Source of the DNA: Deltaproteobacteria bacterium | GTDB lineage: Bacteria; Desulfobacterota; Desulfomonilia; UBA1062 | DNA length: 64,000 bases | Direction of reading: 5' to 3' | Assembly: GCA_015486075.1 (NCBI GenBank) | Contig: WFSG01000041.1 | Span: 62,001-126,000 of the forward strand | Shown here: piece after piece, positions 56,932 to 58,180 of the stretch | Layout: each line of letters opens with the position of its first letter | Position numbering within the stretch: the first letter of the stretch is position 1 | Made by a program: the position numbers and the translations under genes | The notes under the pieces: model-generated | Databases searched by the model: none | Told to the model about the DNA's origin: nothing | Seen by the model: only the letters and a program-made list of their open reading frames with translations

Positions 56932-57903
56932 ATGGATGTGGCATCATATGCAAGGGCTGGGCAATATTTAGGTGCTGGCCTGGCAATGGGTTTTGGCGCC
57001 ATAGGTGCAGCTCTTGGTGAGGGCATGACCGGTGGCTTTACTAACCGCGCAATATCAAGGCGCATATCAATGACACCGGCCCTTACTAGGACCATGCTGG
57101 TGGCACAGGCAGTTGCCGAGACGTCTGCCATATTTGCTCTGATGGTAGCAATACTTCTCCTGTTCACGGACATGGCAGAACAGGGGCCCTGTGCCTGGGC
57201 AGCAGCGATAGGTGCGGGTCTTAGCATTGGCCTCGGTTCTTTTGGGTCAGGCATAGGTTCAGGTTATCCCGGTGCAGAGGCAACCTGGGGAGTATCAAGG
57301 CAACCAGCTGTTGCCCCGCAGATGACAACCAACATGTTAGTGAGTCAGGCTGTGTGCCAGACCCCTGCGATATTTGCCCTGGTTATCTCCTTCCTGCTCA
57401 TGTTTATGGACTATTCGAAAGACCCTATGTGGCCCTACAGCGCCGCGCTTCTAGGCGCTGGGCTCTCCATGGGTATAGGGGCCATTGGATCGGGCTGGGG
57501 AGGTGGCGAGACAGGAGGTGCTGCCTGCAAGGCTTTTGCCAGGCATCCTAGGACAAAGACCTCCATGATGACCTTGATGCTCGTAGGACAAGCTGTAGGG
57601 CAGACCCCGTCCATATTTTCGCTAATGGTGGCATTTATACTCATATTCAGTAATTACTCGGGCCAGCAGCTTACTTTGCATTCAACCATGGCGCCTCTGG
57701 CTGCAGGTATATGCATGGGCTTTGGCGCACTAGGGCCAGGGTATGGTAATGGCTTAACATCTACAAAGGCATGCGAGGCGCTCGGCATGCGTCCTCAGAA
57801 TTCAGGGTTGATAATGCGTACCATGTTAGTTGCGCAGGCTGTTGCGCAGTCAACTGCCATATATGCCCTGGTAATTGCCTTTGTGCTGATATTCGTGGTC
57901 TAA
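56932..57903 (+). CDS. Four-hairpin fused ATP synthase c subunit with a single carboxylate site
   Basis: A 323-residue proteolipid made of four tandem c-subunit hairpins (residues about 8-80, 88-160, 168-240, 250-323), eight membrane helices in all. Each hairpin keeps the Gly-rich TM1 and the L-V-x-Q-A-V start of TM2. In hairpin 1 the ion-site residues are Glu30 and Glu63 (A-V-A-E-T-S). In hairpins 2, 3 and 4 the TM2 carboxylate is Gln143, Gln224 and Gln306, and the TM1 position is Ser110, Gly191 and Asn273. So only one of four hairpins can bind an ion in the usual way. Hairpin 4 most resembles the separate c gene downstream (K-A-C-E-A and the L-I-F-V-V end). Start ATG 56932 (GTG 56923 is also possible). 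The gene lies directly between atpB and atpE. Confidence 0.9.
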   Translation: MDVASYARAGQYLGAGLAMGFGAIGAALGEGMTGGFTNRAISRRISMTPALTRTMLVAQAVAETSAIFALMVAILLLFTDMAEQGPCAWAAAIGAGLSIGLGSFGSGIGSGYPGAEATWGVSRQPAVAPQMTTNMLVSQAVCQTPAIFALVISFLLMFMDYSKDPMWPYSAALLGAGLSMGIGAIGSGWGGGETGGAACKAFARHPRTKTSMMTLMLVGQAVGQTPSIFSLMVAFILIFSNYSGQQLTLHSTMAPLAAGICMGFGALGPGYGNGLTSTKACEALGMRPQNSGLIMRTMLVAQAVAQSTAIYALVIAFVLIFVV

Positions 57904-57931
57904 AGAGAACAAGACAAGGAGGATGGAAATT

Positions 57932-58180
57932 ATGGGTATTAGTGGTGAAGATCTGATGAGGGCGGCTGCCTTTCTGGGGGCCGGTATCTCCATGGGCTTG
58001 GGTGCCATAGGACCTGGTGTTGGAGAGGGTTTCGTTGGAGGCAAGGCATGTGAAGCCATAGGCCGTAATCCTGAAGAGGCTGGCCTCTTGACACGAACCA
58101 TGCTTGTTGCCCAGGCCGTCTCCGAGTCCACCGGTATTTACTCGCTCGTTGTGGCTCTACTCCTGATATTCGTGGTTTAG
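57932..58180 (+). CDS. atpE: ATP synthase subunit c, sodium-type, single hairpin
   Basis: Standard 82-residue c subunit. From start 57932 (AAGGAGG 9 bases upstream; ATG 57923 would touch the ribosome site) the ion-site residues carry the same numbers as in sodium-driven c rings: Pro28, Glu32, Glu65, Ser66, Thr67 and Tyr70, in S-E-S-T-G-I-Y. Glu at position 32 in place of Gln matches the two-carboxylate sodium motif described for Fusobacterium. It lies 28 bases after the four-hairpin c gene, and both should be made from one message. Confidence 0.95.
   Translation: MGISGEDLMRAAAFLGAGISMGLGAIGPGVGEGFVGGKACEAIGRNPEEAGLLTRTMLVAQAVSESTGIYSLVVALLLIFVV

Follow-up and report, generated by a model that had tools for sequence, protein, structure and literature searches.

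Can the rotor of an F-type ATP synthase work when most hairpins of one of its proteins have lost the site carboxylate? This question is raised by a stretch of 64,000 nucleotides from an anaerobic Deltaproteobacteria bacterium (contig WFSG01000041.1, positions 62,001 to 126,000; hereafter the window), in which two different c subunits are encoded side by side. The first, c4, is a four-hairpin F-type c subunit of 323 residues (56932..57903, + strand), recognised by its open reading frame (ORF), by Pfam ATP-synt_C and by a hairpin profile, while the second is a single-hairpin c with the full set of sodium-type ligands (57932..58180, + strand; ORF and Pfam). The composition of the ring sets the number of ions spent or gained per ATP. 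From the sequences, we consider it probable that this F-type ATP synthase has two rotor proteins, c4 being a wedge in a ring of single c subunits that would leave fewer sodium sites and fewer ions per ATP.

The two rotor proteins and their known relatives

The c4 frame runs uninterrupted from the ATG at 56932 to the stop at 57903, with a GTG in frame at 56923. It holds four matches to ATP-synt_C (PF00137; 184.7 bits, with a cut-off of 24), compared with one in the single c, which begins at the ATG at 57932 (another in-frame ATG lies at 57923); a, b, delta and beta matches are found in the same operon. The hairpins span residues 4-82, 84-162, 165-243 and 247-323, and the predicted structure has a predicted local distance difference test score (pLDDT) of 95.6 and a predicted template modelling score (pTM) of 0.92. 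Only hairpin 1 keeps both site acids: Glu30 in the first transmembrane helix (TM1; 57019..57021, +), equivalent to position 32 of sodium-type c, and Glu63 (57118..57120, +; position 65), the sole site carboxylate of the second helix (TM2) in c4. The site is erased by Gln143 in hairpin 2 (57358..57360, +) and Gln224 in hairpin 3 (57601..57603, +), both encoded by CAG, and by Gln306 in hairpin 4, again CAG at 57847, which is followed by the partner-side ligands Ser307, Thr308 and Tyr311 (57847..57864 for the four residues, +). The TM1 position of hairpins 2-4 reads Ser, Gly and Asn, and hairpin 1 has Phe68 where the single c has Tyr70. The ligands of the single c are Glu32, Val63, Glu65, Ser66, Thr67 and Tyr70. 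The original prediction, made from the letters of the window, had read much of this correctly: four c hairpins in one frame, the Glu63, Gln143, Gln224 and Gln306 numbering, Glu30 with its three replacements, and Glu32, Glu65, Ser66, Thr67 and Tyr70 in the next gene. What we add to it are Phe68 and the Ser307, Thr308 and Tyr311 of hairpin 4, the division of the retained ligands over the first and the last hairpin, as read from the sequences, and the presence in the genome of one F1 with two sets of a and c.

Among solved structures, the closest sequence to c4 is c1 of the Na+ F1FO ATP synthase of Acetobacterium woodii and Clostridium aceticum (PDB 4bem chain J), which matches the predicted structure with 36% identity and 1.6 Å over 159 residues. 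In both cases a fused c and a single c share an F-type operon, hairpin 1 is live, and the last hairpin has Gln while keeping its partner ligands (ETS..F then QTT..Y). The c1 motifs are given as Q....ET and Q....QT in a passage of PMC7911925. However, c1 has two hairpins, one of them dead, whereas c4 has four with three dead consecutively, and its homologues have 3-6; moreover, TM1 Gln is present in both c1 hairpins, while the TM1 ligand is gone from the dead hairpins of c4. Thus, the features of the hybrid F/V rotor are present in a fused and a single c in one F1FO operon and in a live acid in hairpin 1 with Gln in the dead hairpins (E,Q,Q,Q in the window), but the hairpins are not exactly two, and on this number strict membership of the A. 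woodii type fails. The proposed kinship with c1 is supported by sequence and predicted fold, and the proposed hybrid-rotor design, with fewer acids than hairpins, by sequence; the fused c is likely to work as c1 does.

Other rotors are more distant. Subunit K of Enterococcus hirae (PDB 2bl2) has two hairpins, belongs to a V-type enzyme and, by residue numbering, has its live acid in the second hairpin and not the first. The archaeal c subunits of Methanocaldococcus jannaschii (three hairpins) and Methanopyrus kandleri (13), described in part of PMC2359735, resemble c4 in having more than two hairpins per chain, although they belong to V/A-type enzymes and that of M. kandleri has sodium ligands in every hairpin. 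The single c of the window shares Glu32, Val63, Glu65, Ser66, Thr67 and Tyr70 with the two-carboxylate Na+ c11 of Fusobacterium nucleatum, which the passage on it in PMC3692424 describes as a ring of 11 sites without a fused partner. By its ligands, the single c would be sodium-specific; such motifs can mislead, since Sporomusa ovata has Q...ET/S and yet its ATPase is reported, in an excerpt of PMC9430772, not to be stimulated by NaCl.

Two other assignments were rejected. c4 falls below all V-type K model cut-offs (e.g. PRK06271, 100.5 against 211) and its operon is F-type. The a subunit is below the cut-off of the alternate F1F0 ATPase (NCBIfam alt_F1F0; altF1_A, 134.8 against 302.1 bits); c4 passes TIGR03322 (139 against 130.85), with four hairpins summed in that score, and the single c fails (59). 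No title or abstract in the literature searched describes an F-type c with more than two hairpins; the search did not cover the hybrid-rotor survey of Brandt and Mueller (2015), so absence from print is not established. That survey is said to list twelve species with F- and V-type c in one operon, some of which could hold a fused c.

Conservation of the fused c and its split site ligands

The homologue search and TM2 alignment that the original prediction called for found its pattern again in 209 distinct proteins, which are the best 120 of 2229 and the best 120 of 2075 matches of two overlapping searches (both at expectation value E <= 1e-20). Counted with a hairpin profile built in this analysis, one of them has three hairpins, 63 have four, 115 five and 30 six. 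Position 65 of hairpin 1 is Glu in 206 of the 209 and its TM1 acid, position 32, is Glu in 189, while 585 of 592 internal hairpins have Gln at the site. The last hairpin has Gln in 108 and Glu in 99, so the fixed 3:1 mix of dead and live sites that had been proposed is not general. Proteins P0151 and P0205 and the EQQE and EQQQE groups illustrate the second acid in the last hairpin; there, Thr67 and Tyr70 are mostly in the hairpin before. In 40 relatives searched together with the source genome, nine of the same family have a fused c longer than c4, which counts six hairpins in eight of them and five in the other. Because these nine and the 209 homologues repeat the pattern, chance or a sequencing error can be dismissed.

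Fused c proteins (c_n) are not confined to this family. At E <= 1e-40, a five-hairpin query matched 40 of 395 sampled genomes of the phylum, in 28 of 246 genera, and a scan of public genomes found 21 loci, whose titles name Deltaproteobacteria, Desulfobacteraceae, Desulfobacterales, Hydrogenedentota, Planctomycetota and two unplaced bacteria. Most of these are metagenome-assembled genomes, so the labels depend on binning. Desulfosarcina variabilis (P0151) and Desulfatibacillum aliphaticivorans (P0205), whose proteins both count four hairpins and carry acids in the first and the fourth, are named sources among the 209 homologues; holders of a fused c include cultured sulfate reducers, which opens the system to experiment. 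The window, the 21 scan loci and 30 loci from the phylum sample make 52, or 46 distinct loci once six exact duplicates are removed. In all 46, a single-hairpin c lies downstream of c_n on the same strand, with the full sodium set (E/Q32, V63, E65, S/T66, T67, Y70), as the original prediction of a sodium-type partner would have it. We therefore regard the fused c as a real variant of the hybrid rotor, conserved and widespread. In three of the 45 loci that remain when L049, which ends at a contig end, is left out, the fused c has no site acid in any hairpin (L043, L045 and L048; GQQQ twice and SQQ) and stands beside a normal c; these would be pure spacer parts of the rotor, if they are in the ring.

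The fused proteins are under purifying selection, with ratios of nonsynonymous to synonymous substitution (dN/dS) of 0.007-0.108 in 15 pairs, in some of which dS is saturated. The internal site codons of the 45 loci are CAG 100 times, CAA 14 times, and GAA and GAG once each; thus Gln persists through silent change, though a single base would give Glu. A sequencing error or a pseudogene is ruled out by this selection, by the silent codon changes and by the conservation among homologues. Only five switches among the first, internal, last and single types are needed on a tree of 252 hairpins, which indicates that the hairpin positions are old. A tree of 208 proteins, from which one three-hairpin protein was left out, requires at least 26 changes in the number of hairpins.

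Which ligands of a sodium site belong to the neighbouring hairpin is partly general knowledge of these rings. In passages of PMC3692424, the ion of sodium rings lies between two hairpins, with acids 32 and 65 from one and Val63 and Ser66 from the next, and Thr67 and Tyr70 are near it. Similarly, Thr64 of the fused E. hirae subunit pairs with Glu139 and Gln110 (PMC2359735, in part), so that, by numbering, the acids of hairpin 2 face hairpin 1. c4 divides these roles as A. woodii c1 does with its two hairpins: hairpin 1 retains the acids, and hairpin 4 the partner ligands Ser, Thr and Tyr. Among the 209 homologues, the last hairpin keeps the partner ligands almost without exception (Ser66 and Thr67 in 208 each, Tyr70 in 209), the first lacks the partner side (Phe70 in all 209), and so do most of the internal hairpins (Pro67 in 474 and Phe70 in 449 of 592). 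Within chains, Thr67 and Tyr70 are found together in the hairpin preceding 89 of 106 live acids but only two of 695 dead sites, counts that are inflated by the relatedness of the proteins. In the test of the opposite order, a full partner side in the following hairpin is anti-associated with the acid (6 of 213 live, 293 of 588 dead), and acid and partner side of the same hairpin show no link (p 0.09). The plain reading of these sequence counts would be that sites are kept or erased as units of two hairpins, and that the ends of c_n match their neighbours in a ring.

A probable wedge in one ring and the rival explanations

In such a ring, hairpin 1 of c4 would complete its site with the preceding single c, hairpin 4 would supply what the site of the following single c lacks, and the inner hairpins would serve as neutral spacers. 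One common ring, a lower ion/ATP ratio and an asymmetric rotor, all part of the original prediction, are likewise inferences. A passage of PMC3692424 gives 11 hairpins for every sodium F-type ring that had been characterised up to 2013. If this number is assumed, one c4 and seven c would give 8 sites and 2.67 Na+ per ATP, compared with 3.67 for c11; a one-acid c5 with six c would give 7 sites (2.33 per ATP), and a one-acid c6 with five c would give 6 (2.0 per ATP). Live sites would then be separated by 4, 5 or 6 hairpins, an arc that reaches about 196 degrees at most. Since nothing would drive the rotor along an extended neutral arc during synthesis, we lean slightly towards ATP-driven sodium pumping as the preferred direction. 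In addition, c4 would be made in smaller amount than c, from a weaker ribosome-binding site. Indeed, the site of c is the stronger in 39 of the 45 loci (mean energy -9.9 for c and -5.2 kcal/mol for c_n), the difference being smaller in the window (-11.4 for c and -9.7 kcal/mol for c4); the chosen c start is doubtful in L043, one of the six opposite cases. This contrast fits few c_n per ring, while giving no ratio.

Two observations weigh against a wedge in the turning ring. A fused c10 of Bacillus PS3 that carried a single E56Q failed to make ATP (reported in part of PMC8809890); as one Gln stops ATP synthesis there, it is hard to see how a rotor would turn through three to five consecutive Gln. 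Moreover, the 208-protein tree has 9 changes of the last-hairpin acid and 7 of the partner state, and their coupling is not significant in an independent-pairs test (six pairs: 1.9 same, 0 opposite, 4.1 no difference). Rotors that contain several neutral sites in nature must be different from that of PS3, for example in subunit a. The SISFRLFGN motif is present in the a subunit of all 28 distinct fused-c loci with a readable a; the residue nine places beyond the Arg is acidic in one of these 28, while GED stands there in six of six a subunits from other loci of the class. The difference might go with the fused rotor or with sodium use. The a subunit of the window (a1, 56251-56922) is without the acidic GED after the essential Arg.

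Alternatively, the fused protein could form a ring of its own, used in place of a ring of single c only: three c4 would add up to 12 hairpins, whose three sites would be spaced by 120 degrees and allow about one ion per ATP. Hairpin 4 would complement hairpin 1 of the next copy, so such a ring has complete sites, and two rotor genes per operon could serve two rings. We think this unlikely, as a ring of five-hairpin homologues would have 10 or 15 hairpins and one of six-hairpin homologues 12 or 18, with no common size for a three-site ring, the closest solved relative (4bem) is mixed in one ring, and the forms without a site acid could not work alone. These acid-free forms also speak for an assembly scaffold or ring-size ruler that does no work in the rotating ring or is taken away later, as do the weaker ribosome-binding site and the variable hairpin number; nevertheless, a member of the ring would need the Glu that hairpin 1 keeps and the partner ligands that the last hairpin keeps, and the predicted fold matches such a member, which makes this role rather improbable. 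It is very improbable that c4 is a duplicate in decay, in which fused c genes have lost their sites and remain without function. Three of its four sites are indeed lost, and two relatives of the same family have a decayed single c before their b genes, but those relics show what loss looks like, whereas the fused proteins are under purifying selection, keep Gln in spite of silent changes, and have a pattern that is conserved among the 209 homologues.

Should the fused proteins take part in functional rings, one would have to reconsider whether every c in turn has to bring an ion past subunit a, and fusing genes, from two to six hairpins, would be a graded means of changing the gear ratio. Natural rotors would seem to have evolved runs of three to five neutral sites.

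One F1 and two sets of a and c

The same F1 may also be served by a second pair of a and c elsewhere in the genome, which would give two gears. The source genome has one beta above cut-off, in the window, and b matches in the window only; its two other PF00006 matches, on contigs C35 and C22, we take to be a flagellar-type ATPase and Rho. The a subunit, by contrast, is encoded twice, as a1 in the window and as a2 on contig C22, where a2 and another c lie on the - strand with two small accessory genes (3143-4888 of L111) and no b or F1 genes adjoining. In all ten c_n genomes of the family a2 has a c within about 400 bases; one F1-type beta above 800 bits is found in seven of them, and in the other three the contig ends before it. 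Most c_n genomes also have a more divergent pair of a and beta (605-630 bits) elsewhere, which the source genome is without.

In the seven relatives without c_n that were read, the F1 operon begins at the b genes, and five of them have no a or c match upstream of b. A decayed single c stands before b in G004 and G023 (L106, 2357-2566, +; L110, 4178-4486, -), and the F1 genes beside these relics match at 84-88% (alpha). All seven have a2; thus F1 can live with a2 alone, and the F1 of the c_n genomes, judged by gene content, probably serves both sets of a and c. Were this true, the ion or the gear could be switched without a second F1. The c of the second rotor reads Q...ESL and is possibly of the proton type. 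More tentatively, and with some doubt, we propose that one F1 is common to two interchangeable motors, one a conventional a/c and the other a sodium rotor whose wedge leaves up to half of the ring free of sites, so that the sodium gear would combine driven bursts with a free-running arc. In this scenario, rotary coupling would be maintained through steps that have no carboxylate.

Two further stand-alone c genes lie on contigs C21 (20075-20266) and C32 (124407-124598). No further ATP synthase genes accompany them in the stretches that were read, and we take their neighbours, from their look, to be sensor-like proteins. The one on C21 is upstream of an Rnf-like cluster. The source genome has RnfD, and the frames beside it presumably belong to an Rnf cluster. 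Desulfobacteraceae make a sodium-pumping Rnf2 abundantly, according to a passage of PMC11887813.

In the window, c4 and the single c sit between atpB and two b genes in a complete F-type operon on the + strand, with beta and epsilon last. Upstream of subunit a, it contains a small F0 accessory protein (55630..55926; Pfam ATPase_gene1) and a putative small membrane protein, presumably AtpI-like (55850..56251; ORF), whose frame starts at a TTG within the preceding gene and whose product has no Pfam match but a 29% identical neighbour in the operon of relative G008. Subunit a1 follows (56251..56922; Pfam and comparison of a subunits), with the SISFRLFGNIMGGS motif around the essential Arg. Downstream of the c genes are two b-type stator subunits (58191..58622 and 58619..59200; Pfam, b matches), delta (OSCP; 59197..59736; Pfam) and alpha (59743..61257; a PF00006 match, named from its position in the operon). 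We take 61267..62127 to be gamma from its position, and likewise 63585..63998, whose start was set at an ATG within a longer frame, to be epsilon; between them lies beta (62153..63568), the sole TIGR01039 match of the genome above cut-off. The upstream neighbours, at 54144-55079 (-) and 55173-55610 (+), are presumably LpxC and a bactofilin.
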